Notes under the pieces: model-generated
The model's input: the letters and a program-made list of their open reading frames with translations, nothing else
What the model was told of the DNA's origin: nothing
Databases searched by the model: none
Made by a program: the position numbers and the translations under genes
Shown: positions 1,925 through 27,528 of the stretch, piece by piece
Layout of the letters: each line of letters opens with the position of its first letter
Position numbering within the stretch: the first letter of the stretch is position 1
IMG/VR virus record: IMGVR_UViG_3300036766_001577
Span: 1 to 28,625 of that record
Source of the DNA: a virus
Strand: one strand, 5' to 3'
DNA length: 28,625 bases

Positions 1925-2995
1925 TCAAGCCTTCGCCGGCTCCCGCACGGCGACCCGCGCGCCAATCGAGAAGCCGGTGAGCGCGCCACTCTTGATGGCG
2001 GCCCACACTTCCGGCTGCGGCACGTGCCACGCCTGGAGCCACGAGCCCTTGCGCACGAGCTGGCCCCCGAGCGTGAAGTCCGCCGGCGCCACATAGTTCT
2101 CAACCAGCACTGCCTCGCCGTCCTGGAGGTCCGTCCGGTGCATGAGGCGCAACCGCGCGCGGCCCACGCGGTAGTCCGCCAGGAAGCGCCAGGCCGCGAG
2201 CTCGATTTCCTCGATGCTCGTCTGGTCGCCCTGGGTGTCCACCGCGTCGGGCTCCATCACGACCCCGAGCACCACGCGGCGCTCGTCGTCGGCGCTCGCG
2301 TACTTCGTCGTCACGAGCGGGGCGGGTTCGCCCGCCGGCGGCGCCCCGATCGTCAGCGTCAGCACGGGCTCCGCGGCCGCGGCCTTCGCGTGCTCGCCCG
2401 GCCAGATCCCCGTGAGCTGCTCGTGCAGCCACGCGCAGAACGCCTCGGGATCCTCGGCGTCCGTTTCGGGCGCAATGCTCTCCAGGCAGTGCTCCATGAA
2501 GCCCGGGTCCTGGACCTTCATGGCCAGCAGCGCGCGGCCCTCGTCCGTCAACGTGACAAGCGGCAAGTGGCGCAGGCCCTTCTCGACCATCTCGTCCGCG
2601 CACGCGGGACACAGCGCCCGCACGACGGCCAGCGGCAGGAAGTCGCCCTTGAGCACGCGCGCGTCGCGCACGGCCGCCACCCGGTCCCGGAACGCCGTCA
2701 CCGCCTCGTCCTTCGCGTCCACGGCCCAGCGACCCCAGCGCCGCGCGCGCCGGTACAGGTCGGCAAGTTGCACGTCCGTGAGGACAGCCAGGTCCTCGTC
2801 CGTCATGCTCGTGATGGCCTTCCGTTCCGCGGCGCTAGGCTCGTCGGCCTGCCGGCGTCCCCGTGCCCCGCTGCGCCCGAGGGCGTCGCGGTGGAACAGC
2901 TTTGCCAGGCTCGGCAAGTGTTCCTTGAGCGTGCCCAGCATCTCCTCGAGGTACGCGCGCGTGAGGCGGCGCGTCCCCTTCTCGGTGTCCGTCAT
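1925..2995 (-). CDS. Prohead protease, XkdF-like (Peptidase S78_2)
   Basis: A 356-residue protein. The last 120 or so residues carry the XkdF-type protease domain: VVLGVVMEPDAVDTQGDQTS, then the conserved helix EIELAAWRFLADYR, a histidine in RLRLMHR, and the TGFSIG segment with the presumed serine near the end. This family processes scaffold and capsid during prohead maturation. The N-terminal 230 residues are helical and charged with a CPAC pair and no domain I can name. I chose the ATG at 2995 because it overlaps the previous stop (ATGA). The open frame continues upstream to 3319 but that part is out-of-frame translation of the neighbour. Next to the scaffold and decoration genes, the assignment is consistent. 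Confidence 0.8.
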   Translation of the reverse strand: MTDTEKGTRRLTRAYLEEMLGTLKEHLPSLAKLFHRDALGRSGARGRRQADEPSAAERKAITSMTDEDLAVLTDVQLADLYRRARRWGRWAVDAKDEAVTAFRDRVAAVRDARVLKGDFLPLAVVRALCPACADEMVEKGLRHLPLVTLTDEGRALLAMKVQDPGFMEHCLESIAPETDAEDPEAFCAWLHEQLTGIWPGEHAKAAAAEPVLTLTIGAPPAGEPAPLVTTKYASADDERRVVLGVVMEPDAVDTQGDQTSIEEIELAAWRFLADYRVGRARLRLMHRTDLQDGEAVLVENYVAPADFTLGGQLVRKGSWLQAWHVPQPEVWAAIKSGALTGFSIGARVAVREPAKA

Positions 2996-3285
2996 GTGCT
3001 CGCTCCTTCGTCCGCATCGCCCACGCCGTCGGTGACGATCAGCACGTCCTCGGCCCGCTGCGCCAGGGCCAGCAGCTCCTTGCGCGTGCTGTCGGCGTCG
3101 CCCGGCGCCACACCCGCGCTCAGGTCCGCCACCAGTCCCGCGGCCGGCGCCCAGCCGTCGCGCAAGAGCACCGCCAGCATCAGGAGCTTCGGCTGCGTCC
3201 GCGCCCACTGGACGAACGTCGCCCAGCCGCCGAGGCTGGCCACGTCGCCGAGGTAGCCGTTCACGTCCCGCGCAATGTAGCTCAT
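2992..3285 (-). CDS. Hypothetical phage protein
   Basis: A 97-residue acidic, helical protein with no recognised domain. It overlaps the protease start and the stop of the gene upstream by four bases each (ATGA), so translation is probably coupled. Segments such as GGWATFVQWARTQPKLLMLAVLLRDGW give an amphipathic helix with Trp and Leu. Nothing suggests an enzyme. Its constant position between the nuclease-like head protein and the protease suggests a small head-assembly factor; that is inference from neighbours only. Confidence 0.6.
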   Translation of the reverse strand: MSYIARDVNGYLGDVASLGGWATFVQWARTQPKLLMLAVLLRDGWAPAAGLVADLSAGVAPGDADSTRKELLALAQRAEDVLIVTDGVGDADEGAST

Positions 3286-3983
3286 GCGACCCGTCCCGTG
3301 AGGAAGGCCGTCGCTTCACGGAGCGACGAGAAACCCCGCATGGTGCCGAGGCGGAAGGAGCCCACGCCGTGCGCCACGTAGTACCGCGTGCCCGAGTAGA
3401 GGCGGCCGTGGCCGAACTGGTCCCGCGCGTCCACCACGACGGTCGCCAGCCGGGCGCGTGCGCGGCGCGCCCACGACTGTTTCCGCGCCAGGCTGTCAGG
3501 GTGCATTGTCACCTTGTCGTTCGCCTGGTCGCAGAAGGTCTTGACCTCGATGCCCACCGTGCGGCCGCGCGCGTCCTGAGCCACGATGTCCACGGGGTCG
3601 TTGTCCGTCGTCGGCTTCCCGCGCAGGGCGCGCGCCACGAGGCGTTGCTGCCGATCGCCGGCGCGCTGCTTCGCGGCCGTGGCGGGCTTGTGCGTGGCCA
3701 GGGCGCGACTCGCGCGGTCGGACGGGGCCACGGTCTGTCGGTCACGTGCAGTTGGCTCTTTGGTCGCACCACCACCTCCCCCACCACCGTCTGTCCACTT
3801 CCCGTCGTCCGCACGCGCCTGGTCCGGGTCGAACTTGTGCCGCTCCGTGAGCTTCGCCCGCGCCCCGCGCAGCGCCAGCTTCTCTGTCGCCCGCATGAGC
3901 GCGCCGCAGTACGCCTCCGGGTTCTCCTTGTCCCCGTTGGCGGCCACGCACGCAGCGAAGTTCTCGTACCCAGCGAACGGCAT
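3282..3983 (-). CDS. Virion-linked nuclease candidate (PD-(D/E)xK-like C-terminus)
   Basis: A 233-residue two-part protein. The first 60 residues (FAACVAANGDKENPEAYCGALM, then FDPDQARADDGKWT) match short segments common in phage minor head and MuF-associated proteins. A run of seven glycines forms a linker. The C-terminal 135 residues look like a restriction-type nuclease: DPVDIVAQ followed by GIEVKT supply the Asp and the E-x-K of a PD-(D/E)xK site, then VTMHP, LATVVVDAR and YYVAHGVGSFRLG. This layout is that of a capsid-targeting head joined to a toxin or nuclease domain. ATG with GGGAGG upstream. It could be packaged in the particle and act on host DNA at entry, or trim DNA during assembly. 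Nuclease activity is inferred from the motif. Confidence 0.6.
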   Translation of the reverse strand: MPFAGYENFAACVAANGDKENPEAYCGALMRATEKLALRGARAKLTERHKFDPDQARADDGKWTDGGGGGGGATKEPTARDRQTVAPSDRASRALATHKPATAAKQRAGDRQQRLVARALRGKPTTDNDPVDIVAQDARGRTVGIEVKTFCDQANDKVTMHPDSLARKQSWARRARARLATVVVDARDQFGHGRLYSGTRYYVAHGVGSFRLGTMRGFSSLREATAFLTGRVA

Positions 3984-4023: not shown

Positions 4024-4641
4024 TCAACCCTCGACCGGCCGCCGTGCCCACGCGAGGTAGCGCCCGTACGCGTCCGTCGTCTCCGGCACAGGCACGACAG
4101 CGAGGCCCAGCGCCGCCAGCCGCGCGGTCATCGGCTCGCGGTAGTGCGCCATGTGCCAGTCGTCCAGCACGAGCAGTCCGCCCGGGGCCGTCCACTTCAC
4201 AAATTGCTCGGCGTGCCGGACCCGCGTGCCGGTGCCGTCAAGGTCCACGAACACGAGGCCGAAGCAACCCGGAGCGAACGCGCCGGGATCCGCCGCGAGC
4301 AGCACGGCGAAGTCCCACAGGTTGTCTACCGGCAGGCCGAGCCCCGCGAGCTCGATGCGCGTGGTCGCCAGCCAGCGCGCCTCGTCGTCCACCGTCCACA
4401 CGTCCGTGACGGGCGGGGCTTGCTGTTGCCAGAGCCGCAGCACGGTGGACGAGAAGCCTGAGCCCAGCTCGAGGACGCGGAACGCAACAGCGGCCCCGCG
4501 TGCCTGCTCGCGCTCACAGGCGCGCCAGACCCAGGCCGCGGCCGCCACGCCGATCGCCGTGCAGTCCCGGCGCTTGTTCTTGCCGCAGTGAACGCGGTGC
4601 TGCTCCATGAGCAGCGCGAGAAGGGCGTCGTCGTCCGTCAT
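4024..4641 (-). CDS. SAM-dependent methyltransferase (class I)
   Basis: A 205-residue class I methyltransferase. Motif I is VLELGSGFSSTVLRL, with an acidic end to the next strand (VWTVDDEARW). The strand-4 region FGLVFVDLDGTGTR and the GGLLVLDDWH region follow in the order of the family. The N-terminus holds a short cysteine/lysine-rich stretch (CGKNKRRDC). It starts at an ATG overlapping the upstream glycosyltransferase stop (ATGA), with AAGGGG before it; the longer open frame upstream is not used. It closes the five-gene glycan cassette. The substrate is unknown; sugar or amino-group methylation is suggested only by the glycosyltransferase neighbours. Confidence 0.75.
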   Translation of the reverse strand: MTDDDALLALLMEQHRVHCGKNKRRDCTAIGVAAAAWVWRACEREQARGAAVAFRVLELGSGFSSTVLRLWQQQAPPVTDVWTVDDEARWLATTRIELAGLGLPVDNLWDFAVLLAADPGAFAPGCFGLVFVDLDGTGTRVRHAEQFVKWTAPGGLLVLDDWHMAHYREPMTARLAALGLAVVPVPETTDAYGRYLAWARRPVEG

Positions 4642-5444
4642 GACCCGTCCCCTTGTGCGCGCAGCGCCGCGAACGCGTCGCGGTGTCGCGCACGGATGGC
4701 CTCGACCACCGCGCGGCGGCTGGCCAGCCCCCGGCACCGGCGGCCGCTCTTCTGCGCCGCATGATGGCGGTACGTCGTCGTCACGCTGTCCACGGCGACC
4801 AGGCTGTGCCCGGTGACGAAGTACCGCAGGTGCCACTCCCACTCTTCGCCCGCCGTGAGGGCCTCGTCCCACGGCCCCGTCTCCTGCCACGCGGCGCGCC
4901 GGAACATCGTGCCCATGCCATGGAGATAGAGCCCGTGGCGCGCCACACCCCGCGGCGTCACGCGCGGATGGGTCAGCAGCCAGCTCCGCAACTTCGGTGG
5001 CGTCCAGCGCGGCGTTACGCCGTCCGCCTCCACGTACACGGGCAGCGAATAGGCGCCGCCCACCGCGGGGTCCGCTTCGAGCGCCGTTACGAGCACCGCC
5101 AGCTTGTGTGGGAGCATCGTGTCGTCGTCCTGGAGGACCGTCAGGTAGCCCCCGCGTGCCAGCGCGGCCGCCGCGTTGACGGCGGCCCCCTGGCCCCGGC
5201 GCGGGATGGCGTGCACGCGCAGCACCGGCGGGGTCGGGTCGTGCGGTGGCAGCCACGGCGCGTCGAGGCCGTCGTGGACGACGACCACCTCGTAGGCCTC
5301 GGCCGGGTACGTCTGGCGACAGGCGCTAGCGACCGCCTCCGCGAGGAGGGCCGGCCGCTCATGCGCTGGAATCAGGACCGACACCGTAGGGCGGGCTCGC
5401 TGCGCGAAGTCTTGACCGAGGCCCAGGCCGTTCCGAGCTTGCAT
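4638..5444 (-). CDS. Family 2 glycosyltransferase (GT-A fold)
   Basis: A 268-residue GT2 enzyme. The nucleotide-sugar-binding start is TVSVLIPAHERPALLAEAV (about residues 20-38), with VVVVHDG after it, the metal-binding DDD near 106-108 in LTVLQDDDTMLPHK, and the acceptor/base region TGPWDEALTAGEEWEWHLR near the C-terminus. It transfers a sugar from a nucleotide donor; donor and acceptor are unknown. I prefer the ATG at 5444, which has GGGGGTG just upstream. An ATG at 5552 would add 36 residues made largely by a 9-bp tandem repeat and has no Shine-Dalgarno sequence. It overlaps the methyltransferase downstream by four bases. Confidence 0.75.
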   Translation of the reverse strand: MQARNGLGLGQDFAQRARPTVSVLIPAHERPALLAEAVASACRQTYPAEAYEVVVVHDGLDAPWLPPHDPTPPVLRVHAIPRRGQGAAVNAAAALARGGYLTVLQDDDTMLPHKLAVLVTALEADPAVGGAYSLPVYVEADGVTPRWTPPKLRSWLLTHPRVTPRGVARHGLYLHGMGTMFRRAAWQETGPWDEALTAGEEWEWHLRYFVTGHSLVAVDSVTTTYRHHAAQKSGRRCRGLASRRAVVEAIRARHRDAFAALRAQGDGS

Positions 5445-5486
5445 ATGCACCCCCACGAGAGAGGTCCCGTGTCCGACCACCAGAAG

Positions 5487-5558
5487 CACGTCGCACATCT
5501 CGCCCACCGCGCCCACCGCGCGCACGTGGCCCACGTCGCGCACCTCGTCCATCTGCGG
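5487..5558. repeat. 9-bp imperfect tandem repeat, about 8 copies
   Basis: On the plus strand eight 9-base units follow one another, close to CACSTCGCC (for example CACGTCGCA, CATCTCGCC, CACCGCGCC, CACCGCGCG, CACGTGGCC, CACGTCGCG). It lies just before the preferred start of the glycosyltransferase gene and covers its alternative upstream start. Read on the minus strand in that frame it would give a Val/Gly/Asp-rich tail. Copy-number change would alter only the spacing or the optional N-terminus. Confidence 0.7.
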
Positions 5559-5584
5559 CAGAGCTAGCAGACCCCAGACCCCCC

Positions 5585-6121
5585 TCAGCGGTAGACCGCG
5601 GCCTGGTCCCCGAGAATCACCGCCTCGCGGTGCCCCGGGAGCCGGGCCGCGATGGTGTCCAGCGTTACCCCCAGCCACTCGGGCGTCGGGCTCGCGGTGC
5701 CGAAGCTGTGGACGTCGTCCACGAGCACGAGGTCCCCGGCCGGCCGGGCCGCCAACGCGTCTAACTCGTCCCACAACGGCAAGCCTTCGGCGCGCCCGCC
5801 CACGGGCTCCACGGTCTTGCGGAACCAGTGGGCGTCGAGGTACCAGACGACGCGGTCTGTCAGCTCCCGTGCCAGGCGCTGCACGAACGCCCGCGAGTCC
5901 CCCAGGTAGAAGTGCAGGCCCTCTATCGCGCCGTACAGCTCGACGGCGCGGGCGTGCAGGGCAGGGCTAATCTCCACACTGTGCACGACGGGGAACTGGC
6001 GCCGCGCCAAGAGGCTGCTCGCCGCGAGATAGGTTCCTGTCTCCACGAACACGCCGATGGACGCGTAGCCGGGGTGCCGGTGCCGCAGGGCGTGGAGGTG
6101 ATTCGCCTTCAAGTTCGCCAC
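5585..6121 (-). CDS. Class I methyltransferase-like protein (TylF/FkbM type)
   Basis: A 178-residue protein with VFVETGTYLAASSLLA as the glycine-poor motif I, PVVHSVEISPALHARAVELYG as the acidic strand-2 end, HFYLGDSRAFV, and WYLDAHW with LWDELDALA and LVLVDDVHSFG. This order is typical of the O-methyltransferase-like family found with glycosyltransferases in polysaccharide clusters. Start is GTG at 6121 with GAGGG about seven bases upstream; three bases separate it from the stop of the large glycosyltransferase. Motif I lacks the classical GxGxG, so it may bind SAM weakly or serve another role. Confidence 0.65.
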   Translation of the reverse strand: MANLKANHLHALRHRHPGYASIGVFVETGTYLAASSLLARRQFPVVHSVEISPALHARAVELYGAIEGLHFYLGDSRAFVQRLARELTDRVVWYLDAHWFRKTVEPVGGRAEGLPLWDELDALAARPAGDLVLVDDVHSFGTASPTPEWLGVTLDTIAARLPGHREAVILGDQAAVYR

Positions 6122-6124
6122 AAG

Positions 6125-8002
6125 TCAGACCCTCAGGCGGGCGCGCCAGCCCACGGCGTCGTCCAGGAGGTCGAGGTAGGCACGGGCCACGGCCGCCTCG
6201 TCGTGCCAGCGCGTCACGTGCCGCCACGCGCGCGCGCGGAGCTGATAGAAGTAGGCGGGGTCCCGGGCCAGTCGCTCCAGCACGGCCGCCAGCATGGCCT
6301 CGTCCTCGACCAACGTGTAGGCGGGCGCCCCGCCCGTGTGCGTCTGCCATGCCCACCAGACGGCCGCATCGCCGGCGAGGACCGGCTGGCCCATCGCCGC
6401 GGCCTCGAGGCCGCTGCACTGGAGGCCGAGCCAGAACGAATCGAACGTCAGGTCGCACACCGCCTTCGCCGCGAGCGCGGCGCGGTGCGACAGACCCGTG
6501 AGGACCACCGCCTCCACACCCGTCCGTGCGCAGGCCGCGCGGAAGGCGTCGGTCCCTTTCAGGGCGGGCTTGCTAGGGCTGTGGGCGACGCGCAGCCGAG
6601 GCCCCGGATGCCACAGCGCGCGCGCCAGGGCGCGGTAGGCGGCCACCGGCATCGGATTCGGGAGAAGATGGAGCGCGGCGCCGTACTGGAGTAGCTCGGG
6701 GTTGCTCACGAGGCGGAGGACCGCACCCCGCACGAGGTCCCGCGCATTCGCGTTCGCTGGATGCTTGCGGTAGGGCGTGCCGTGGTGGTGGATCACGAGG
6801 GCGCCGCTGGGCTGCACGCCGAGGGAGTCTAGCGCCTCGTAGTTCACATGGCAGTGCACAACATCGGCCGTCGCCACGGCGTCTTGGAGCAGCCCGCGAT
6901 CGCGCACCACGTCGTACTGTCCCGCGCCCCGGAACACGTTCTGGCGCCCGTCCGTCGCCAGCACAGCCACGTGAGGGGTCGTCACATTGAGCGCCGTGTG
7001 CAGCCGCGTGGCGACCATGCCAGGGTCGTAGGTCGTCACCTGGACGATACGGAGCGCCTCGTGGCCCGCCTCGGCCCGGTGCACGAGGGTGGGCGCGGGG
7101 CAGCGGTGCAGTCCTTCGCTGGCCGCCTGCGCGCGCTGGTGCCGGGCCTGGGCCGCGTGACGGGCCGGGGGGCGGGAGGTGTGCCGCTGGTGGTCGAGCG
7201 TCAGCCCCAGGGGCCGGTGTAGCCACCCCGGCCCCCCGTGCTGGTGCGTGGTCAGGAGCCGCGTGCCCACGTACAGCCAGTGATGCCGTCCCGCATACCG
7301 TAGGCCCGGCCGCCACGCGAACGCGCGCGGCTGGCTGTACGGGCGTCGGTAGAGCGGCGAGCGCACCGTGAGCCAGCCAACGTCGAGCGCCAGGTGACGG
7401 TCGAACACGGCCAGCCCCTCGAGCTGCTCGTCCGCGTCCACCACGAGCAGGAGGTCGCCCGGCTGGCCGGCTGTCAGGTAGGCATTGCGCTTCGTGATCT
7501 GGTCGGGCCACGGCGCCCCGTCGGGAGCGGGGAGGATTGTCACCTTGGACAGCGTGGCCAGGAACGCGAGCGTGCCGTCCGTGCTCGGTCCTTCGGCACA
7601 GCCCGCGCTGGCGTAGCAGCCGTCCACGGCGACCACGGCGTCGGCCGCCGCGTACCACGTGGGCAGCGTGCACCGTAGGGCGGGCAGGTCGTTCCAGACG
7701 TTGAGACAGACCACGAGCCGCCAGGGCTCGGCACGCGGCACCAGTGGGGGATCCCGGAGTTCACTGCCCGCGCCGCCCGGGACAAGTGCCGCCGGCCACT
7801 GGCGCCGCGGCCGCACGAGCGGCAGGGGCGTCCCTTGAGCAAGAAGCCCATAGAAGCCGCAGCCGCCGCAACTCACGGGCGCCGGGGTGCTCGCGGCGCC
7901 GTGGGGGCCGACCACCGCCAGGACCGCGCCCGCACTCGGCACGGGCGCCACGACGGCCCCACAGTCGGGACAGGTCAGGCGCAGCGGCGCCCGGCGACTC
8001 AC
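6125..8002 (-). CDS. Bifunctional glycosyltransferase: zinc ribbon, GT2, GT4
   Basis: A 625-residue fusion. Residues 11-14 and 45-48 (CPDC, CGGC) form a zinc ribbon. Residues 96-270 form a GT2-like domain: LVVCLNVWNDLPALRCTLPTW, then VVAVDGCY and the metal site VVDADEQLEG near 187-195. Residues 318-610 form a GT4/GT-B domain: DVVHCHVNYEAL, VIHHHGTPYRKH, LRVAHSPSKPALKGTDAF and CSGLEAAAMGQPVLAG, which holds the conserved donor-phosphate glutamate region. Two domains suggest two successive sugar additions. The start is GTG at 8002, overlapping the membrane-protein stop (GTGA); the open frame further upstream is out-of-frame sequence. Donors and acceptor are unknown. Confidence 0.8.
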   Translation of the reverse strand: MSRRAPLRLTCPDCGAVVAPVPSAGAVLAVVGPHGAASTPAPVSCGGCGFYGLLAQGTPLPLVRPRRQWPAALVPGGAGSELRDPPLVPRAEPWRLVVCLNVWNDLPALRCTLPTWYAAADAVVAVDGCYASAGCAEGPSTDGTLAFLATLSKVTILPAPDGAPWPDQITKRNAYLTAGQPGDLLLVVDADEQLEGLAVFDRHLALDVGWLTVRSPLYRRPYSQPRAFAWRPGLRYAGRHHWLYVGTRLLTTHQHGGPGWLHRPLGLTLDHQRHTSRPPARHAAQARHQRAQAASEGLHRCPAPTLVHRAEAGHEALRIVQVTTYDPGMVATRLHTALNVTTPHVAVLATDGRQNVFRGAGQYDVVRDRGLLQDAVATADVVHCHVNYEALDSLGVQPSGALVIHHHGTPYRKHPANANARDLVRGAVLRLVSNPELLQYGAALHLLPNPMPVAAYRALARALWHPGPRLRVAHSPSKPALKGTDAFRAACARTGVEAVVLTGLSHRAALAAKAVCDLTFDSFWLGLQCSGLEAAAMGQPVLAGDAAVWWAWQTHTGGAPAYTLVEDEAMLAAVLERLARDPAYFYQLRARAWRHVTRWHDEAAVARAYLDLLDDAVGWRARLRV

Positions 8003-8370
8003 GACGTCAGGCGCACGGCCACGAGGTAGAGCACTGCGAGGTCGAGACCGATGGCGTCCGCAACCAGGTCCGCCACGTCGGGCACGTCCGCGAACGCCGG
8101 CGGCCAGCCGACGGACCCCGCGAGGGTCCACCGTGCCTGCCGGTAGCCTTCCGTGAGTTCGATGGCCAGGCAGGCGCCCCAGAACACCGCGAGCTGCCAA
8201 CCGACCGCCACCGGGAACAGGGCCAGGAGGAACCAGAGCAGTGCCGCCCCGGCGATGTGCTGCACCTTGTCGCGGGCAGCGTACCAGTGGCCTGTGTCCA
8301 CGAGGTCCCCGCCGAGGCTCGTCCACTCCCACTTCCAATGGACGCACGCCCGCCACAGCGCACGCGTCAC
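7999..8370 (-). CDS. VanZ/DUF2279-like small membrane protein
   Basis: A 123-residue membrane protein. The segment DKVQHIAGAALLWFLLALFPVAVGWQLAVFWGACLAIEL contains one or two membrane helices and starts with the D-K-x-x-H signature of VanZ-like and DUF2279 proteins. The C-terminus (FADVPDVADLVADAIGLDLAVLYLVAVRL) matches the D-x-x-D-L-x-A-x-x-x-G pattern with a last helix. Start GTG at 8370, overlapping the stop upstream (GTGA). VanZ-like proteins often accompany surface-glycan genes, which fits the cassette; a holin-like role is an alternative given the phage setting. Confidence 0.6.
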   Translation of the reverse strand: MTRALWRACVHWKWEWTSLGGDLVDTGHWYAARDKVQHIAGAALLWFLLALFPVAVGWQLAVFWGACLAIELTEGYRQARWTLAGSVGWPPAFADVPDVADLVADAIGLDLAVLYLVAVRLTS

Positions 8371-8783
8371 GGCAACCACGTCCCGCCGACGCTGCACGTC
8401 GCGCTGTCGCCCGGCGCGTTGCCGATGACGAGCACGAGGCGGACGTTGGCGCCGATCGGCTGGGGCACGACGCTGTTGGCGACCGCCGTCACGCTCGGCC
8501 GCACCGTGAGGAAGACCGTGCCTGTGCCCACCTGCTGCACGACGCTCGCGCCCGGGACGTCGGCGAACACGCCCGACACGGGGTCGCGGTGCTGCGCCCG
8601 GAGGTCCACGGTCGGCGTGCCCGCCACCGCACTGATGCGCAGCGCGGCGGTGAGGCCCTTGGCCTTCCGCGGCACGACCAGGTCCACGTTGACGGTGACG
8701 CCGTTTGCACGCACGGCGCTCGCGAGGGCGAGGAAGTCCCAGGGGAGATGGCGGACGGAGTCCGCTGTGGTGGGCAACGGCAT
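8367..8783 (-). CDS. Small structural-type phage protein next to the portal
   Basis: A 138-residue all-beta-looking protein (VTVNVDLVVPRKAKGLTAALRISAV, VVQQVGTGTVFLTVRPSVTAV, ANVRLVLVIGN) with no catalytic motif that I see. ATG start at 8783, three bases downstream of the portal fusion stop. It precedes the glycan cassette. Its strand pattern and position suggest a head surface or decoration protein, perhaps an acceptor for the glycosyltransferases encoded next; both points are inference. Confidence 0.55.
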   Translation of the reverse strand: MPLPTTADSVRHLPWDFLALASAVRANGVTVNVDLVVPRKAKGLTAALRISAVAGTPTVDLRAQHRDPVSGVFADVPGASVVQQVGTGTVFLTVRPSVTAVANSVVPQPIGANVRLVLVIGNAPGDSATCSVGGTWLP

Positions 8784-8786
8784 GGT

Positions 8787-11126
8787 CTACTCCTTCTCCT
8801 TCGGCGGCGCCGCCGGCGCCACGGTGCAACGGCAATTGATGATGTTCTCGGGGCTGCCGCTCGGGTCGCCCGGGAACATCAGCTCTTCGCCCCCGACGTC
8901 GAAGGCGTCCGCCAGCGCGACGACCTGGCCGTTCGCTTCGGCGTGCGGGTCGCGCGTCCGTTCGTCGGGCGTGGCCAGCCATTCCTTCCCCTCGGCGCCC
9001 GCTTCCTCGTAGCCCGCCATCGCTGCGGCGTTCATGGCCCCGAGGGTTTCCGTGCGCGCGATCGTGGCGGCCCGACTGAGGCTGTCCAGCCGCAGCGCGT
9101 CGTTCACGCGCTCGGCGACCACCTCGGGGTCGAGGCCTTCATGAAGGCCGCGAATCAGCACGTCACGCAGGCGCGTCTGCGTGCGCGTACCAATCTCGGC
9201 GAGCCGGCCCTGGAACGCCTTCGCCCGCAGATAGTTCGTCGCGGCGCGCTGGAAGTCCCGGGGCACGGGGATCCGCCGGCCCGCCTTCTCGACGTGGCCC
9301 GCGGCCTTGAGCACGCGTCGAGCCAGGCGCGCCCCGGCGACGGCCGCCGGCAACATCGCCTGCTCGAGCGCGCGCTGTACGCCGAGGCGGAACGTCCGCT
9401 CAATGCCCGCGTCGAGCGCCTTGCGCAGCCACACCTCCATGCCCTCAGGGCTGGCGAACGTCGGCTGCTCGCGGCGCAGCGCCTCCACCACCGCACCGTA
9501 CTGCTGTCGCACGTACGTGGACGCGACGGCCCGCACGCGACGCTCGGCGACCGTGAGCCGGATGTCGGCCGCCTTCCAGACCGCCAGCCGGTCCGCCGGG
9601 TCCGGGTCGAGGTCCAGCGTCGCAGCCGCCATCTTGCCCGCCAGCCCCGCCGCTTCCTCGGTGCCGGGGGGCTGCGTGTCGCCCGGCGCCGCCTCGGGCT
9701 TCTTCGCGGGCGCCCCCTCGGCGCCTGGCGCGGGCTCGTTCGGCTCTGGCGTTTGGTCGGGCCGGGTCGTGCCCTCGCCTTCCGGCGTGACCGCGATGCG
9801 CTCGGGCAGGCCGGCCACGCGCCGCAGGTAGCCCTCTAGGTTCGCATCCCCGCCGACGTCGTAGCCCACGGCCGCCAGCGCCGTGACGAACGCCGCGAGC
9901 AGATTCAGGTCCCGCGTCTCCACGTCGCCCGGCACGAGGCGCGGCAGGACCGTCACCTTCGGGAACTTCGGCAGGCCGCGGTTGAGCGCGAAGAGCGGCG
10001 GCACCGCCGAGCTGTTCACCTCGTCGGCGATCGACGTGGCCCACGCGCCCACGGCCTTGCTGAACGTCGAGGTCTTGCTGTCGGCGAGCGCGTAGCTACC
10101 GACCGCTTCCCCACCCAGGAGGATGAAGTCGGCGAGGCAGACCTGGAGGATGCGCCGGTCGTACCGCTGAATGATGGCGTCGGCCGTCGTGGCATTCGTG
10201 CTGCCGCTGCCCTGCAGCAACCCGAGCCTGTAGCCCGCGTCCTCGTTGGGCACCATGACGCCTACGCGCGCGTCCACGCGAATGTCGGCCAGCATCTTCT
10301 CGAGGTCGTTGCGCAGCGCCACCAGGTCCGCCGGCGCGTTGGGCATCAGGAGTTCCTGCGGCACCTGCAACGTGGGGAGTCCGGCCAGATTCCGCTCGAC
10401 GCCGATGGCCTCGATTTCCTCCAGCCGCTTCTTGTAGTACCAGGCGCGGTAGGCATTGCGCAGCGCGCTCCGCCCCTCGGGGTTGTTCTTGAAGCGGGTC
10501 GCGGTGAAGTGCAGCGCCTTCGCACGCGGCAGCTCGACGGGCCGGTAGTCCGGCGGCGCGGCCTGGACCATGCCCACCACGTCGCCCTCGTCATTGAAGA
10601 CCCACTTGCGCCACGAGTCCTGCGAGCGGATCGGCAGCTTCCGCCAGCCGTAGAAGCCGTCCGTGAACTGTGAGCGCTTCGTGAGGTCGGTCGCGTCGGG
10701 ATTCAGCCGCAGTTTGTAGCAGACCTCGTGCCAGGACCAGCCGAACGCGAGGAAGCTAAGGGCTTCCACGAGAAAGGCATCCCACGAGTGCTCCATGTCG
10801 GTGAGGCAGGAGTTGGCGAAGTCCGCGGCGGCGCGGTCGTGCGGCTGCTCGCTCGCCGGCTCGAACGCCCACGGGACCTGCCGCATCGTCATCTGGATGG
10901 CGAACAGCAGCGCGCCCACGGCGCTGTCGTTGTCGCTCATCTCGCGGTACACGCGGATCCCGCGCGCGCCCCGCAGTTGCGGCAGCCACTCCTCGGTGAC
11001 GGTCCCGCCCCACGCATTCAAGCCGGTGCGGCCCACCACGAGCAGGGCGCGCGAGCGCTGGCCCTCGGGCGGGGCGGCGGCGGGAGGCGGGGAAGGCGCG
11101 GACGGGGCGGCGGGCGGTGCGGTCAT
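8787..11126 (-). CDS. Portal (DUF935-like) fused to Mu F-like minor head protein
   Basis: A 779-residue fusion. Residues about 60-445 resemble the Mu gp29/DUF935 portal: REMSDNDSAVGALLFAIQMTMRQVPWAF, FLAFGWSWHEVCYK, then ALHFTATRFKNNPEGRSALRNAYRAWYYKK. Residues 450-520 form a Pro/Ala/Glu-rich linker. The C-terminal part ends with the MuF signature from residue 691: RTETLGAMNAAAMAGYEEAG, KEWLATPDERTRDPHAEANG, FPGDPSGSPENIINCRC. Portal and minor head proteins are usually separate genes. ATG at 11126 has GAGGG eight bases upstream; a TTG at 11192 would extend it, without a ribosome site. The portal forms the packaging vertex; MuF proteins sit inside or at the vertex. Confidence 0.85.
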   Translation of the reverse strand: MTAPPAAPSAPSPPPAAAPPEGQRSRALLVVGRTGLNAWGGTVTEEWLPQLRGARGIRVYREMSDNDSAVGALLFAIQMTMRQVPWAFEPASEQPHDRAAADFANSCLTDMEHSWDAFLVEALSFLAFGWSWHEVCYKLRLNPDATDLTKRSQFTDGFYGWRKLPIRSQDSWRKWVFNDEGDVVGMVQAAPPDYRPVELPRAKALHFTATRFKNNPEGRSALRNAYRAWYYKKRLEEIEAIGVERNLAGLPTLQVPQELLMPNAPADLVALRNDLEKMLADIRVDARVGVMVPNEDAGYRLGLLQGSGSTNATTADAIIQRYDRRILQVCLADFILLGGEAVGSYALADSKTSTFSKAVGAWATSIADEVNSSAVPPLFALNRGLPKFPKVTVLPRLVPGDVETRDLNLLAAFVTALAAVGYDVGGDANLEGYLRRVAGLPERIAVTPEGEGTTRPDQTPEPNEPAPGAEGAPAKKPEAAPGDTQPPGTEEAAGLAGKMAAATLDLDPDPADRLAVWKAADIRLTVAERRVRAVASTYVRQQYGAVVEALRREQPTFASPEGMEVWLRKALDAGIERTFRLGVQRALEQAMLPAAVAGARLARRVLKAAGHVEKAGRRIPVPRDFQRAATNYLRAKAFQGRLAEIGTRTQTRLRDVLIRGLHEGLDPEVVAERVNDALRLDSLSRAATIARTETLGAMNAAAMAGYEEAGAEGKEWLATPDERTRDPHAEANGQVVALADAFDVGGEELMFPGDPSGSPENIINCRCTVAPAAPPKEKE

Positions 11127-11205
11127 GCGAGAAGCCCTCGGGACGAAGAAGCCCGGCGCTTCCAACGTAGGGACGCGCCGGGCCGAGGGCAAGAGTGCGG
11201 GGCGG

Positions 11206-13575: not shown

Positions 13576-14874
13576 CTAGGCCCCCTGCCAAGGCGACGTC
13601 TGCTGCAGCCGCGGGGACGCGGGGAGCCGGGGCGCCCCGGCCTGGGCCTTGCGGATCAGCGGCCGCGCCGCCCGCCACGCCATCGCCAGCGCCATCACGG
13701 CGTCGTCGTGCATGCCCTCGGGCGCCCGGTACAGCACGCCCGTCCGCGTGTACTCGTACTCGAAGTCGTAGAGCTGCTGCGTCACCAGCCCCTCGAGCAC
13801 GCCCAGCTCGTGGTCCTGGATGGCCATTTGCAGCCCTTCCATGAGCTGCTGCTTCGACGGCCCCGTGAACGCGAAGCCCTCGACGTTGTGGAGGCTCTTG
13901 GTAAGTTGGGCAGCCTGGACTTCCTCCACGAAGGGGTCGCCGACGCTCCCATGCGTGGCGTCCATGACCGTGGGCGCCCGGCCGATCGCGTTCACCACTT
14001 CCTTCTTCATGTACGCCCACGGCTTGCCGAGCATGTGGATGTAGTACGCCATCGCCGCCCGCGCGTTGAGCCCGATGCCCACCGTCGCGTCGTCGTGCCG
14101 CCCCAGGTCCCAGCCGAAGCCCACGGACGGCCCCGCCGCGAGCGCCTTGATGGTGCATGCCTTGATGTGCTCGCGCCCAAAGGGGTTGTTGGCGTCGTCG
14201 CTCGGCTCGGCCAGGTACAACTCGCGGAACACGGCGTCGGGCAACTGCTCCTGCGCGTCGGCCACCTCGTCGGCACTCAGCACGCCCGCCTCGATGGCGT
14301 CGTGCGCCGTGAGCTTCGCGTAGTGCATGGTCCGCGTAGCTGCGGGCCGCGTAGCCATCTGCTCCTCGGCCCGGCGCGCCATCTTGTAGGCCCAATTCTT
14401 CCGGCCCTTCACGTTCCCGATGATGCGCACCGGCCCGCGGGTGAAGGTCAGCGTCGAGCGGACTGCATGCCAGCTCTCGGCGCGCACGCGCGTAGCCTCG
14501 TCAATCACCGCGGCCCACACATCCTCGGCGTAGAGGTTGTCGGGTTTCTCGGCGGACTTGAACCAGAGCTTGCTCTTGTTGGGCCAGCGGATCCACATGC
14601 CGCCGTCGCTGCGGCGGAACAGGTCGGGCGGCAACGCGCGGGCCAGCCGCTCGTAGGCCACCTTCGCCTGGGGGTAGACGGGGGCGACCCACCAGAAGTT
14701 GCGGCCGGGACCGCCGAGGCGCGACACCTGCTCGGCGAGCCACTGGATGCAGCCCGTCGTCTTGCCGCTCTTCGTGCTGGCCTCGACCACCCCGTAGCGT
14801 TCGGGGCAGAAGATGGCGTCGTGCTGCTTGGGGTAGAGGGCCGGCTGGAACGTCAGCCGGACGAGCCGGGCCAT
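13576..14874 (-). CDS. terL: Terminase large subunit 1 (complete)
   Basis: A 432-residue packaging motor. Walker A is EASTKSGKTTG (about 31-41). Walker B is VWAAVIDEA with Asp125-Glu126, followed by the coupling segment RIIGNVKG. The nuclease half has the three acidic positions: VGFGWDLGRHDDATVG (Asp256), VMDATHG (Asp305) and MHDDAVMALAMAW (Asp390-391). Both ATPase and RNase H-like nuclease domains therefore look intact. ATG overlaps the stop upstream (TGATG); stop is TAG. It lies on the portal side of the packaging genes, so it is the likely working packaging motor, in contrast to the shortened terminase at 25181-26239. Confidence 0.9.
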   Translation of the reverse strand: MARLVRLTFQPALYPKQHDAIFCPERYGVVEASTKSGKTTGCIQWLAEQVSRLGGPGRNFWWVAPVYPQAKVAYERLARALPPDLFRRSDGGMWIRWPNKSKLWFKSAEKPDNLYAEDVWAAVIDEATRVRAESWHAVRSTLTFTRGPVRIIGNVKGRKNWAYKMARRAEEQMATRPAATRTMHYAKLTAHDAIEAGVLSADEVADAQEQLPDAVFRELYLAEPSDDANNPFGREHIKACTIKALAAGPSVGFGWDLGRHDDATVGIGLNARAAMAYYIHMLGKPWAYMKKEVVNAIGRAPTVMDATHGSVGDPFVEEVQAAQLTKSLHNVEGFAFTGPSKQQLMEGLQMAIQDHELGVLEGLVTQQLYDFEYEYTRTGVLYRAPEGMHDDAVMALAMAWRAARPLIRKAQAGAPRLPASPRLQQTSPWQGA

Positions 14875-15401: not shown

Positions 15402-15709
15402 CGAGAGGACGGGAGGTCGGGCTCGTCGCGCTTGGCCGCGAGCGCCACGCGCAAGTGCCCGTCCACGAGCACGCCCGTGCGCTTGTTCACGACGACATTC
15501 TGGACCCAGCCGACGCGCTCCAGGACCGCGGCCAGGGCCGCTTCCTGCTCGGCCGGATGCACGCGCCAGTTCTTCGGGTTGGCGACCAGGGCGCTGGGCT
15601 TCGCGCGCCCATAGCCCACGATGCGGTCCCGCCACCGCGTCGGCCCCGCCTTCGCCGGCTTCGGCGTGGGCCGCTGCGCCTCACGGGCCGTCTTGCGTGC
15701 CGCCGTCAT
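15092..15709 (-). CDS. ParB/Srx N-terminal domain protein, 5' half of a frameshifted gene
   Basis: The first 100 or so residues carry a ParB-like domain: ALVANPKNWRVHPAEQEAALAAVLERVGWVQNVVVN, then LVDGHLRVALAAKRDEPDLP. This is the class of ParB-like proteins next to phage terminases, mostly of unknown function. The ATG at 15709 has a strong AGGAGGG site and lies 29 bases inside the small terminase gene. After EPDLP the frame continues with Ser/Arg/Thr-rich sequence that looks non-native. The neighbouring frame continues instead with VLSVDAGIIDP and a DUF4417-like domain. A one-base shift at about 15411-15415 restores a 278-residue fusion. So this entry is real to about 15415 only. Confidence 0.65.
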   Translation of the reverse strand: MTAARKTAREAQRPTPKPAKAGPTRWRDRIVGYGRAKPSALVANPKNWRVHPAEQEAALAAVLERVGWVQNVVVNKRTGVLVDGHLRVALAAKRDEPDLPSSRWTPGSSTPCGARRASTSASPRCAPRGSRVSWRRTSRRGPTCRSWPSSTITTARWSSPATWCRPGSRWCRTSAGPRRNSFRSARACGPTRTPPCSWTAITSRR

Positions 15710-16253
15710 CCGGTCCCTCCTCGTCCGCCGCGCGCCGCGCCGGCCGTGTGCTCAGGACGACCTGCACCTCCAGGGGGGCGTCGTCCTCGTCCCCGCCCGT
15801 GAGGGCGAGCTTGTCCCGCCGCCCCCACTTCTTGGGATCCCGCCGCTCCAGCCGCCACGCCGCCGCCGGCCAATGGGCCTTGTCCGCCGCCGCCGCTCCA
15901 ATGTGGAGCACGTCGGTGATCTCCGCGTGCGCCAGCGCCTTTTCTACTGCGTGGGAAAAGTCCGCGTGCGGACTCTCGGTATCCGCCAGCCGGTCCGCCC
16001 GGCCCCGCTTGAGCCAGTCGTACAGCGTCGTCTTGTCCACACCCGCGTACGCCGCCGCCGTCTCGGCATAGTTCCCCGCCCGGACCATCTGCACGAGGCT
16101 CTCCTGCACCTCGGGCGTGAGCTTCGTCGGCCGGCCGAGAGGTCGGGGCGTGAGCGCCGCCGGCACCGGTGGGGCCGGGGCCGCCGGCGGCGCGCGCCGC
16201 CGGCGGCGTGCCTTCGCCTTCTTCGTTTTCTTCACGGAGCGCCGGGCCGTCAC
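15681..16253 (-). CDS. terS: Terminase small subunit 1
   Basis: A 190-residue protein. A basic, Pro/Ala-rich N-terminus leads into a helix-turn-helix (GRPTKLTPEVQESLVQMVRAGNYAETAAAYAGVDKTTLYDWLKRG) typical of small terminases, which recognise the packaging site. It is followed by FSHAVEKALAHAEITDVLHIG and AAWRLERRDPKKWG, also seen in this class. The acidic tail may be disordered. Start GTG at 16253 overlaps the Mom-like gene stop by four bases (GTGA). Its neighbours, a ParB-DUF4417 gene and large terminase 1, make the pairing clear. Confidence 0.8.
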   Translation of the reverse strand: MTARRSVKKTKKAKARRRRRAPPAAPAPPVPAALTPRPLGRPTKLTPEVQESLVQMVRAGNYAETAAAYAGVDKTTLYDWLKRGRADRLADTESPHADFSHAVEKALAHAEITDVLHIGAAAADKAHWPAAAWRLERRDPKKWGRRDKLALTGGDEDDAPLEVQVVLSTRPARRAADEEGPDDGGTQDGP

Positions 16254-17143
16254 TCAACGCCTGGCACGGGGGGGGGGAGCGCCGGGGTCGGGGTTGAACC
16301 GCCCTCTCCTACCCGGCTGGTAGGCGCATCGGACACGATGCTTCCGGCGCTGGGTCCCTGCCCACGGTACATGGTCGCCCCCATCTCCGCAATCTTCGAG
16401 AACGGCAGCACCGGCACCGTGAGCCGCGCGCGCGCCGTGGGGTCGAGGAAGTAGAGGTAGCGGAGCTGGAAGCCGGGCAGCGGACGGAAGCCCGCCGCCT
16501 TGTACGCGCGCATCGAGGCCGCCCCGCGTGAACTCTCGAGGTGCACGCCTTTCGTCACCGTCGTGCGGTCGATGATTTCCCGCTCGCGCAATTGCATCTG
16601 GTGCGACGTGGCTGCCGTCCGGTTCACCACCACCGGCACCGCGGCCGTGGTCTTGTGGGCGTGCACGCTCAGTTTCGCCACCGTCTCCCCACCCGGCCCG
16701 ACCCACAGCGACGTGTTCCGCCGGATCCCGGTCAGCACGAAGCCGCTGGCCCGGTAAATCGTGCCGTCGCCCGACTGCGTGGCGTCAGCGAAGCTCACGA
16801 CCCACTGCACGTGCGGGGCGTGCCGGCGCAGGAGGCGCATCGCCACAGCCAGGGCGCGGCTCTCGCTGTTGCGGGGCAACGCGTCCGAGAACGCGAGCCG
16901 GTTCAGCTCGAGGAAGCCGTTCCAGGGCGTGCCCTCCACGAGGCCCACGAGCTTGCGCTTGTCGAGCGACGGCCCAAAGGACATCACACCTTCACAGCGG
17001 CCCCCCAGGAACACGCCGAGATGGAGCTGGGAGTTGCGGACGAACTTGCGGCTGTAGTGCCACTGCACCGTGAGCCGGCGCGCGGCGGTGCTGGCGATCG
17101 GCTGGACGCGCAGGTCCTTGACGCCCTTCACGCGCGGCTCCAT
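16250..17143 (-). CDS. Mom-like DNA modification enzyme (GNAT family)
   Basis: A 297-residue protein of the phage Mu Mom type. Recognisable parts are VQWHYSRKFVR (about 27-37), GRCEGVMSFG, FLELNRLAFSD (about 77-87), WVVSFADATQSGDGTIYRASGFVLTG (about 114-139), and the C-terminal RYLYFLDPTARARL. Mu Mom adds a methylcarbamoyl group to adenine N6 and protects phage DNA from restriction. The ATG at 17143 lies 16 bases inside the ParB-like gene's end, with AAGGC before it. The extreme C-terminus contains a ten-base C tract (minus strand), so a slip there would change only the last few residues. The substrate base is not shown by the sequence. Confidence 0.75.
   Translation of the reverse strand: MEPRVKGVKDLRVQPIASTAARRLTVQWHYSRKFVRNSQLHLGVFLGGRCEGVMSFGPSLDKRKLVGLVEGTPWNGFLELNRLAFSDALPRNSESRALAVAMRLLRRHAPHVQWVVSFADATQSGDGTIYRASGFVLTGIRRNTSLWVGPGGETVAKLSVHAHKTTAAVPVVVNRTAATSHQMQLREREIIDRTTVTKGVHLESSRGAASMRAYKAAGFRPLPGFQLRYLYFLDPTARARLTVPVLPFSKIAEMGATMYRGQGPSAGSIVSDAPTSRVGEGGSTPTPALPPPVPGVE
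16268..16277. repeat. Ten-base G tract (C tract in the Mom-like gene)
   Basis: Ten consecutive G on the plus strand, within the last codons of the Mom-like gene, encoding PPP of PALPPPVPGVE. It is long enough to slip in replication or to be misread by sequencing. A one-base change would alter only the end and the overlap with small terminase 1. Confidence 0.85.
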
Positions 17144-17838
17144 GCCTTGACCGCCGCGTCCACGAGGCGCGCGAGCGCGTTCCCGTTGCTGTTCTCGTTC
17201 CCCGTGTCGCCGAAGCTCCCGCGCCCCTTCGCCGCCACGAGGCCGGCCCGCACCCGCTCCGCCTGGTCCCGGTGCAGAGTAAACATCATCTGCTCGAACT
17301 CGCCCTTGGGGCCGGTCGGCAACGTGTCGAACGCCTCGATGCCGAGGCCTTCGACCTTCAACTTCCGTAGCAGCGCGTCCACGTCGTCGGCGTCGTAGCC
17401 CGTGCCCGGCAACCCCGCCTCCCCAACCGCCTGGAGCAGCTCTGCGAGCTGGGCTTCGTCGTACGACGCCAGGTCCGACGTGCGGTTGTCCGCCAGCGCA
17501 TACGCGACAGCCTCGGCGTCGTCGGTGTCGGCCGCGTTCACCGCGACCGCCCGCCAGCCCAGCGCCTGCGCCGCCTGCCACGTGTGATTGCCCGCGATGA
17601 TGAGACCGGTGGACCGCTGCACGACGAGCGGCTTCCGTTGCCCGAAGCGCGTGAGCGCCTGGCTCAACGCGCCGACGTCGCCCTGTCGGGGATTCCCGGG
17701 CCAGGGATGCACGTCGTCAATCGGCACCGCGAGCGCCTCGAGGTCGGGGTCCAGCCGCTCGGGACCGCGCTCGGTGGGCAGCCGCCGCACGAACCCCGGC
17801 GCGGCCTTCTTCGGAGCGGCGCGCCGGCGCGGGGTCAC
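17128..17838 (-). CDS. ParB/Srx-like nuclease-domain protein
   Basis: A 236-residue protein with a ParB/sulfiredoxin-like N-terminal domain: PIDDVHPWPGNPRQGDVGALSQALTRFGQRKPLVV, then LIIAGNHTWQAAQALGW and VAYALADNRTSDLASYDEAQLAELL. In place of the ParB G-E-R-R box it has GNHT, common in the phage versions. The C-terminal half is helical and charged with no recognised domain. GTG start at 17838 overlaps the RuvC-like gene stop (GTGA). It lies between a RuvC-like nuclease and the Mom-like gene, with a second ParB domain beside terminase 1 and a third in the 543-residue protein at 20328-21959. Confidence 0.7.
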   Translation of the reverse strand: MTPRRRAAPKKAAPGFVRRLPTERGPERLDPDLEALAVPIDDVHPWPGNPRQGDVGALSQALTRFGQRKPLVVQRSTGLIIAGNHTWQAAQALGWRAVAVNAADTDDAEAVAYALADNRTSDLASYDEAQLAELLQAVGEAGLPGTGYDADDVDALLRKLKVEGLGIEAFDTLPTGPKGEFEQMMFTLHRDQAERVRAGLVAAKGRGSFGDTGNENSNGNALARLVDAAVKAWSRA

Positions 17839-26239: not shown

Positions 26240-26714
26240 CGGCGACCCGGTCAGCCTGCTTCCACCGCCGCAGCATCGCCCGCCTGTCCCGACGCGTGAG
26301 TTGTACGTCGCGTTCGACGACGGCGACTATCCGCGCGCGCGGCGTGGTCCACGTCGGGAAGTGGTCCTCTGTCGAGGGGACGAGAGCCCCGAGTGGCACG
26401 ACGCGGTAGAGGTCGCCCGCGCTGCGTCCCGCGTACCAGCGCGCATAGCCGATGTCGGTAGTCAGGTAGACCGCCTTGAGCACGCTCGGCGGATCAATTG
26501 GGGCATCGTCAGGAGCCAGGGCGAGTTGCGCAAGGAGCGGCGCCGCCTTCGGCCCCATCGTCCCGAGCCAGCGGCGGTACTCATCTACTCGCAGGACCCG
26601 GCCTGTAGCTCGCGCGACGCACACCGGGCACCCGTCCGTGACGTGAGGCGGGGAGGGCTCCAGGATGGCCCCGACTCCGAGACCGCGCGCGCCGCCGTGG
26701 AAGAAGGTCGTCAT
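26232..26714 (-). CDS. ADP-ribosyltransferase-like phage protein
   Basis: A 160-residue protein resembling small phage proteins of the Arr/ADP-ribosyltransferase-like type. Key parts are FFHGGARGLGVGAILEPS at the N-terminus, SVLKAVYLTTDIGYARWYAGRSAGDLYRVVPLG (about 79-111), ALVPSTEDHFPTWTTPRARIVAVVERDVQLTRRD and a basic end. The H-G, Y-L-T-T and S-T-E-D positions fit an ART core, which uses NAD+ to modify a protein or RNA. Two Cys (CPVC) may bind metal. It sits between small and large terminase 2, overlapping both neighbours. The target is unknown. Confidence 0.6.
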   Translation of the reverse strand: MTTFFHGGARGLGVGAILEPSPPHVTDGCPVCVARATGRVLRVDEYRRWLGTMGPKAAPLLAQLALAPDDAPIDPPSVLKAVYLTTDIGYARWYAGRSAGDLYRVVPLGALVPSTEDHFPTWTTPRARIVAVVERDVQLTRRDRRAMLRRWKQADRVADG

Positions 26715-27316
26715 TCGACCTCCGCCCGGATCAGCCCCGGTGTGCCCTCGACGATGATCTGCACCGCCACCGCTGGCCCCGCTGAGTCGGCCTTGAGGCG
26801 GCCCGTCATGCGTAGAACTCTTTCCAGGGCCGCGCCCTTGTCGTGGAGCGTGACCTCCAGGTGCTCGTCGATCAGGTGCGTCGCGGTGCCGCTGCTGTCG
26901 GGCCGCAGGGTGCGCTTGATCTTGACCGACTTCACGGCCGCCATCGCCCGGTCGGTGACTTCTCCCGAGCCCTTCACGGTGGCGAAGGGGCGTCCTTCGC
27001 TGTCCTCGCCCCAGCTCATCACGTCGGAGAGCCGGGAGGTGGCGAGCGCCATGTTCTCCCGCACCGCCTGCTCGGCTTCGTCGTTCAGTGCAGCGTCGAT
27101 GGCTTCGGAGCCAAGGCGAATTGCGAGTGAGACGCTACCCTTTGCTACCAGTCGGGAGGAGTGCGCGCCTGCGGCCTCGTCGGTCGCCGGGTGGTAGCCT
27201 GCCCTGCGGTAGGCCTGGCTGGCGTTCCTGTCGATCAAGTATTCGCGGACGAAGAGCCGTTGCCGGGGCTCCAGTGCCGCCAGGGCCTCGTCGAACGTCT
27301 GGGGTAGCTGCACCAC
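26711..27316 (-). CDS. Terminase small subunit 2
   Basis: A 201-residue protein with the small-terminase helix-turn-helix pattern: LEPRQRLFVREYLIDRNASQAYRRAGYHPATDEAAGAHSSRLVAKGSVSLAI. The rest (AALNDEAEQAVRENMALATSRLSDVMSWG) is helical, with a beta-rich end. It resembles the Terminase_2 type, distinct from small terminase 1. AGGAGG lies five bases before a GTG at 27316; a second GTG at 27313 is equally possible. The open frame goes further upstream through the control region and is not used. It starts the leftward module with its own control region. Confidence 0.7.
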   Translation of the reverse strand: MVQLPQTFDEALAALEPRQRLFVREYLIDRNASQAYRRAGYHPATDEAAGAHSSRLVAKGSVSLAIRLGSEAIDAALNDEAEQAVRENMALATSRLSDVMSWGEDSEGRPFATVKGSGEVTDRAMAAVKSVKIKRTLRPDSSGTATHLIDEHLEVTLHDKGAALERVLRMTGRLKADSAGPAVAVQIIVEGTPGLIRAEVE

Positions 27317-27371
27317 GGCGACCTCCTGATTGCTCGGCACCTTCGCACGACGGGCGGCGGAGCCAAAACCC

Positions 27372-27431
27372 TCGCAATCTGCGAAAAAACTTGCATTTTG
27401 CGGGACATTTGCCGGTCTTGCATAATGCAAG
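27372..27431. promoter_or_regulatory. Three operator-like palindromes
   Basis: TCGCAATCTGCGA (27372-27384), TTGCATTTTGCGG (27391-27403, imperfect) and CTTGCATAATGCAAG (27417-27431). All fit YGCA-NNN-TGCR, and their centres are 19 and 27 bases apart. The first shares its 11-base core with an origin iteron. Two overlap the rightward promoter hexamers. Confidence 0.7.
27398..27426 (+). promoter_or_regulatory. Sigma70-like rightward promoter
   Basis: -35 TTGCGG (27398-27403), 17-base spacer, -10 CATAAT (27421-27426), five of six matches at -10. It lies on top of operator-like sites, so it is probably repressible. The first rightward start codon follows about 100 bases downstream. Confidence 0.55.
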
Positions 27432-27528
27432 TCATTGTCCTGTCCTACCTTGCGTGATGGCATGGCATATGCCCTAAGATAGCCTAGACGCCAGGGCAAT
27501 CCCGCCCGGCGAGACACAGGAGTAGACG

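Follow-up and report, generated by a model that had tools for sequence, protein, structure and literature searches.

Gene content and organization of the locus

The window, a stretch of 28,625 bp with about 72% GC that makes up the complete IMG/VR record, carries nearly all of its genes on the minus strand, with the terminase, Mom-family, and portal genes leading into the head genes. Between a portal-MuF fusion and an XkdF-like protease lie five further minus-strand genes (Table 1), which are backed by conserved homologues and, in part, by the GC3 coding bias. This cassette had been described in an earlier sequence-only reading, whose coordinates proved right as outer limits, while several gene starts were corrected: the fusion glycosyltransferase to GTG 8002, the second methyltransferase (MT2) to ATG 4641, and the stand-alone GT2 probably to ATG 5444, which stands behind GGGGG. 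A longer fusion frame (743 aa from 8356) was rejected because it runs into the upstream gene, which is read in a different frame, and the homologues stop short of it.

The same reading had all five genes overlapping. Overlaps of 4 nt were found at three junctions, namely between the small membrane protein gene and the fusion, between GT2 and MT2, and between the small probable structural gene upstream of the cassette and the membrane protein gene. The fusion and the first methyltransferase (MT1), however, are separated by 3 nt, and MT1 and GT2 by 32 or 140 nt depending on which of two candidate GT2 starts is used. Therefore, overlap is not general to all cassette genes.

Table 1. Coordinates of the cassette genes and their flanking genes in the window
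Feature	Position	Strand	Basis
Small membrane protein, 123 aa	7999..8370	-	GTG start 8370; two hydrophobic segments
GT2(GT-A)-GT4(GT-B) fusion glycosyltransferase, 625 aa	6125..8002	-	GTG start 8002; homologues, AlphaFold model
MT1, class I SAM-dependent O-methyltransferase-like, 178 aa	5585..6121	-	GTG start; homologues, model
Stand-alone GT2 glycosyltransferase, 268 aa	4638..5444	-	PF00535; start ATG 5444, alternative 5552
MT2, SAM methyltransferase-like, 205 aa	4024..4641	-	ATG 4641; PF13578 below cut-off, homologues
Small probable structural protein, 138 aa, upstream of the cassette	8367..8783	-	Weak phrog_5707 match, coding bias
Portal-MuF fusion, upstream boundary	8787..11192	-	PF06074 E 6e-31, PF04233 E 1e-18
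XkdF-like head maturation protease, downstream boundary	1925..2990 (start approximate)	-	PF14550 E 3e-25

Several other minus-strand genes of the window were noted as well. The upstream boundary gene joins Mu-type portal and MuF head-morphogenesis domains in a single 801-aa protein. At 446-1420 lies the gene of a 324-aa protein of the head module that contains a zinc-ribbon motif and is possibly scaffold-like, and the nearby fusion likewise carries CxxC..CxxC at its N-terminus. The first 39 residues of the 3282-3983 product are 55-58% identical to the product of a small gene lying between portal and protease in three other loci (L070, L086, L174), whereas the remainder differs from these and weakly resembles NOV_C. 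Two distinct genes resemble terminase small subunits (15681-16253, Sf6-like below cut-off; 26711-27541, Terminase_2), and the 432-aa product of 13576-14874, which found no match in Pfam, is 48% identical to a homologue encoded in L168, a locus with a GT4 gene behind the major capsid protein (MCP).

The MCP and the tail tube protein of the window phage are absent from the 28.6-kb contig. Since no homologues of its XkdF, scaffold-like, or cement genes were found in the collected loci, its MCP type could not be inferred.

Stand-alone enzymes and the small membrane protein

Both methyltransferases named in the sequence-only reading found support, each by a different route. MT1 had no match in Pfam, but its predicted model (pLDDT 92) was clearly that of a class I methyltransferase, with COMT/TrmR-type folds at Z ~15 and a Rossmann methyltransferase fold carrying acidic SAM-binding residues; E27, G29, and D96 were invariant, and E50, D135, and D136 nearly so. 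MT2 matched PF13578 with 22.7 bits, under the cut-off of 26.3, and has homologues of 32-47% identity whose genes come immediately behind the fusion in L058, L059, L062, and L068. The stand-alone GT2 was assigned with PF00535 at 62.5 bits against a cut-off of 23.3 (E 6e-17), as had been read from the sequence; its DDD and EE motifs are conserved, and below the cut-off it also matches EpsD and similar enzymes of exopolysaccharide synthesis.

The small protein encoded at the upstream end of the cassette has transmembrane candidates at residues 36 and 99. It had been called VanZ-like, an identity that was abandoned: PF04892 gave no match even at E 10, although 10 of the 14 control genomes do match this family. 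Pfam, NCBIfam, and PHROGs yielded no family match, the cassette loci contained no homologue, and the 50,697 phage records searched no relative, which places this gene outside the conserved core.

Architecture of the fusion glycosyltransferase

The fusion consists of a variable N-terminal module (residues ~1-75), a GT-A half (~80-310), and a GT4 half (~315-620). The AlphaFold model, based on a 15-row alignment, had a mean pLDDT of 84, both halves being predicted confidently and the N-terminus with low confidence, and together with the structure matches it bore out the GT2-GT4 fusion proposed earlier. The GT-A half, which in Pfam has a PF13704 match below the cut-off, aligned with ThuS (Z 16.5) and SunS (Z 15.4) over ~204 residues, while the GT4 half aligned with SenB, BshA, and PimA (Z 17-18) and also with the T4 DNA alpha-glucosyltransferase (Z ~15.9). 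Because the GT4 half fills the rankings of the structure searches (VIA-align, Foldseek), few GT-A chains were listed, and there may be GT-A families nearer than SunS and ThuS. In profile comparisons, the GT-A half was weakly similar to GmaR (E 1e-4) and reached E 0.44 with SunS.

The sequence-only reading had held that GT domains lacking catalytic residues would speak against it. These residues were examined and found to be invariant, with the DADE motif of the GT-A half and K482 and E533 of the GT4 half retained across 13-15 homologues. The GT4 half has a GT-B fold in which the Lys and the final Glu of the E-x7-E motif are present and the first position of the motif is not Glu.

The N-terminus of the window enzyme does contain the CxxC..CxxC zinc ribbon-like motif noted previously, but this motif occurs only in the window among the 15 fusion homologues, most others having a module of ~45 aa in its place. 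A relative of the 45-aa module is a stand-alone protein downstream of the MCP in L061, and a DUF7302/DUF7210 match was found among the open reading frames behind MCPs without sugar genes; for these reasons the N-terminal module may have been borrowed from a small head protein. The 45-aa module at the glycosyltransferase N-termini of L052, L058, L062, L073, and others likewise resembles small stand-alone proteins encoded after the MCP, and it may serve to anchor the enzyme on the capsid.

The match to the T4 enzyme raises the question of whether the glycosyltransferases hypermodify the phage DNA, placing a sugar on a modified base as a protection against restriction. A Mom-family protein is encoded on the same contig (PF25680, E 6e-52; 16250-17581, minus strand), whose portal is Mu-like. 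It suggests DNA base modification apart from the cassette and leaves such a role as an alternative for some of the enzymes; diverse phage DNA glycans have been described in papers cited in PMC12619734. However, the best structural matches are glycosyltransferases acting on small molecules, lipids, and peptides, and the cassette sits in the head module, away from the Mom-type gene. No thymidylate synthase-like hydroxymethylase was found in the window, which is a fragment, and only two of the 11 contigs searched have one. DNA modification would also leave the correlation with the MCP ends described below unexplained, and we regard it as very improbable.

Conservation and genomic position of the cassette

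A scan of viral contigs with the single fusion protein gave no match, and relatives were reached by a scan with MT1 and subsequently with alignments. In the contigs recruited by MT1, with homologues of 50-52% identity, MT1 again lies between the fusion and GT2, with gene order and orientation unchanged. Profile scans of the viral contigs then returned 26 loci for the fusion and 72 for MT1, with some contigs counted twice. The homologues of the fusion in viral contigs are 37-51% identical; in L052, L053, L086, and L087, those of MT1, next to the fusion, are 50-57% and those of GT2, following MT1, 37-46% identical. A check of gene order in related phages, as had been suggested, indicated that the core order fusion>MT1>GT2 is identical in four environmental phages (L052, L053, L086, and L087). 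In two of these (L086, L087), one more GT-like gene separates MT1 from GT2. Relatives of MT2 come after the fusion in phages that lack MT1 and GT2 at that place.

The fusion gene was found after the MCP gene, directly or across a short gap, in 12 loci (L052, L053, L058, L059, L062, L063, L068, L070, L071, L077, L086, and L087), and the next structural gene after the cassette, where the contig continues, is usually a phrog_442-type head-tail adaptor; both the MCP and the adaptor were identified by PHROGs. GT4-only versions occupy the same slot behind the MCP in L073-L076 and also in L084, which belongs to a Burkholderiales MAG, and in L066/L067 the fusion lies between the large terminase and the portal. 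In the window, the cassette is located between portal and protease and not behind the MCP. Thus, the cassette enzymes occupy several positions, all of them in head modules and beside different portal types, and their clustering goes beyond chance.

No relative of the fusion or of the window GT2 was found in the 50,697 phage records, and the cassette does not occur in the named phages with the nearest portal relatives (Arthrobacter phage Kovu, Microbacterium phage ValentiniPuff). A genome scan gave only two MAG loci, and in 399 genomes from the order to which one of these belongs, the same locus was the only strong match. The fusion family is therefore essentially viral in the collections searched.

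Modification of the host surface for superinfection exclusion had been named in the sequence-only reading as an alternative. As considered here, the enzymes would alter glycans or glycolipids of the host surface in the course of infection or lysogeny, with superinfection exclusion or serotype conversion as the outcome. The EpsD-type matches of GT2, the resemblance of the GT4 halves to PimA/WaaG-type enzymes, the small two-TM protein adjoining the cassette, and an integrase over the cut-off in three of the 11 contigs with a cassette or sugar genes are consistent with it. However, no integrase exceeded the cut-off in the other eight contigs, which are fragments and include the window, and the Pfam hits of the window, itself a fragment, comprised no GtrA, flippase, or membrane glucosyltransferase. 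The glycosyltransferases have no convincing transmembrane segment, their genes lie in the head module in many lineages, and a surface target would leave the correlation with the MCP C-termini unexplained. The positive evidence for host-surface modification is thus small, and we consider it unlikely; like DNA modification, it found little support.

Association of sugar genes with the C-terminus of the major capsid protein

In phages carrying the cassette, the MCP almost always ends in Ser. This was analyzed in a first MCP family, in which dereplicated relatives of the same MCP with a glycosyltransferase gene behind it (n = 46) were compared with those having the adaptor close behind it (n = 7). 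Ser or Thr was present within the last three residues in 45 of the 46 MCPs with a glycosyltransferase, 42 of them with a terminal Ser, and in none of the seven without. Sister MCPs illustrate the difference, ending in VVLDEPAS with the glycosyltransferase (L232) and in VVLDEPAA without it (L216, L218). On the tree of this family, the presence of the glycosyltransferase changes three times, with two of the changes forced by supported branches.

A second MCP family, associated with other sugar enzymes, gave a corresponding result, with terminal Ser in 15/15 MCPs with sugar genes versus 0/9 without; the labels of this family were partly assigned by reading translations, and L240 rests on methyltransferases only. 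Its tree has four trait changes, all concordant. The genes behind the Ser-ending MCPs encode rhamnosyltransferases, methyltransferases, UDP-GlcNAc 2-epimerase, UDP-sugar dehydrogenase, galactosyltransferase, cytidylyltransferase, and LicD, whereas connector and completion proteins predominate behind the MCPs not ending in Ser. The group Pfam tally lists rhamnosyltransferase, epimerase, UDP-sugar dehydrogenase, LicD, and methyltransferases for the former and connector proteins for the latter. Five loci (L248, L250, L253, L254, and L256) encode a UDP-sugar dehydrogenase and, mostly, a UDP-GlcNAc 2-epimerase behind the MCP, and thus their own nucleotide-sugar supply; several of them also carry rhamnosyltransferase-like and methyltransferase genes. 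In the head module of L240, one protein (9468-10400) combines a methyltransferase with a domain of the CTP-dependent riboflavin kinase type (DUF120).

The correlation comprises about seven independent events on the best trees and five on supported branches, and neither sign test alone reaches 0.05; the Fisher p-values computed for the association ignore kinship. Long open reading frames in these loci have a background of about 10% terminal Ser. Among the named-phage controls, HK97 gp5 ends in SSGS with no known glycosyltransferase or glycosylation, and the ten other MCPs have no terminal Ser; a terminal Ser is therefore not a sufficient mark. Further exceptions are L170, which has a glycosyltransferase and an MCP ending in Val, L276, whose MCP ends in Ser with no sugar gene recognized, and L300/L314, with weak MCP matches ending in Ser and no sugar genes recognized. 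With such exceptions, the final residues of the capsid protein indicate whether sugar genes are present, and the data suggest that the Ser end marks where the sugar is attached.

The tail tube proteins of phages with the full fusion also end in Ser (L053:13095-13637, L086, L087, L058, and L052), while those of the glycosyltransferase-free relatives L218, L223, and L225 end in LDAV, and GT4-only phages lack the Ser end.

Comparison with known glycosylation systems

Mycobacteriophage capsid and tail tube proteins have been reported to be glycosylated at the C-terminus (PMC12619734). Che8 is named among the phages with glycosylated virion proteins in PMC12363180, and the virion glycosylation of Che8, Corndog, and Myrna is attributed to Freeman et al. 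(2023) in PMC12619734, PMC12363180, and PMC11256854. The Che8 MCP ends in NKTGS and its tail protein in SDGS; Ser ends were also found among the cassette relatives, the window's own two proteins being off the contig. Che8 and the window phage both encode glycosyltransferases, with intact active sites in the window. However, the Che8 enzymes gp108-110 are encoded near the genome end and the window cassette in the head module; the combination of a GT2-GT4 fusion with two separate methyltransferases is unlike Che8; and the hosts of the cassette phages, where indicated, are proteobacterial. Profiles of the fusion and of its GT-A half gave no convincing homology with gp108 or gp110 (E 0.02-0.25, probability under 3%), while MT2 and GT2 were weakly similar to gp108 (E 1e-5 and 0.002). 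The cassette is thus functionally closest to mycobacteriophage virion glycosylation, but its key enzyme is not a Che8 homologue.

The glycocin S-/O-glycosyltransferases SunS and ThuS have the GT-A fold (fusion residues 75-310) and a DxD-type motif in common with the fusion, but they act on a bacteriocin peptide, have no GT4 fusion, and are similar to it in sequence only at noise level (E 0.4). SunS is SPbeta-prophage derived according to its PDB name. GmaR (PDB 22ao), a flagellin glycosyltransferase, has a protein acceptor as well, in a different domain context and with a different acceptor. The GT4 enzymes BshA, PimA, SenB, and PglA have the GT-B fold and the active-site Lys and Glu of the GT4 half; they differ in having small-molecule or lipid-linked acceptors and no GT-A fusion.

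Proposed function

The cassette, in our assessment, glycosylates the phage's own virion, probably on the C-terminal Ser of the MCP, an interpretation we hold with good though not full confidence. Virion-protein modification, already suggested from the position of the genes, is well supported by the conservation in head modules, most often immediately behind the MCP gene, by the peptide glycosyltransferase-like GT-A half, and by the co-occurrence of sugar genes with Ser/Thr MCP ends in two families. These points, like the gene content, the intact active sites, and the predicted folds, are computational results, and the activity is predicted. Regarding enzyme activity, sugar identity, step order, the acceptor, and its transfer to the window phage, we infer the following scheme. 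The SunS/ThuS-like GT-A half of the fusion would place the first sugar on a head-protein side chain, the GT4 half would add a second, and the stand-alone GT2 a further one, after which MT1 and MT2 would cap the sugars by O-methylation. The finished coat would be a short methylated oligosaccharide on the capsid subunits. Judging from the relatives, from which the acceptor is transferred because the window's MCP is missing from the contig, the likeliest acceptor would be the C-terminal serine of the MCP and, in some phages, also that of the tail tube protein.

Within virion glycosylation, the acceptor in this phage might instead be another head protein, such as the products of 1422-1838 or 8367-8783 or the cement protein. 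The cassette lies between portal and protease with small structural genes adjacent, the 1422-1838 product ends in Ser, and the fusion could be directed to another target through its variable N-terminal module. Given the location between portal and protease, a different acceptor in the window phage is quite possible, but homologous enzymes elsewhere adjoin the MCP and go with its Ser/Thr end, and we rate this alternative as the less probable course.

Implications

Experimentally, phage capsid glycosylation is known from a few mycobacteriophages, and here a different, conserved enzyme set was found in the head operons of many environmental phages. We tentatively propose, as an idea a little short of evenly balanced, that in tailed phages the terminal MCP serine might be a portable tag for glycosylation, used by several unrelated phage-encoded sugar-enzyme sets directly behind the MCP gene. 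These sets comprise the GT2-GT4 fusion, rhamnosyltransferases, and LicD-like and galactosyltransferase-like enzymes, some with their own nucleotide-sugar synthesis genes. The scheme names a specific acceptor, proposes an order of the enzymes, and yields a predictor at genome level that could be tested on any phage; it also prompts one to ask for what reason phages of free-living bacteria cover their capsids with (methylated) sugars. If the terminal serine does serve as such a tag, capsid glycosylation would be widespread in uncultivated phages and not a mycobacteriophage oddity.
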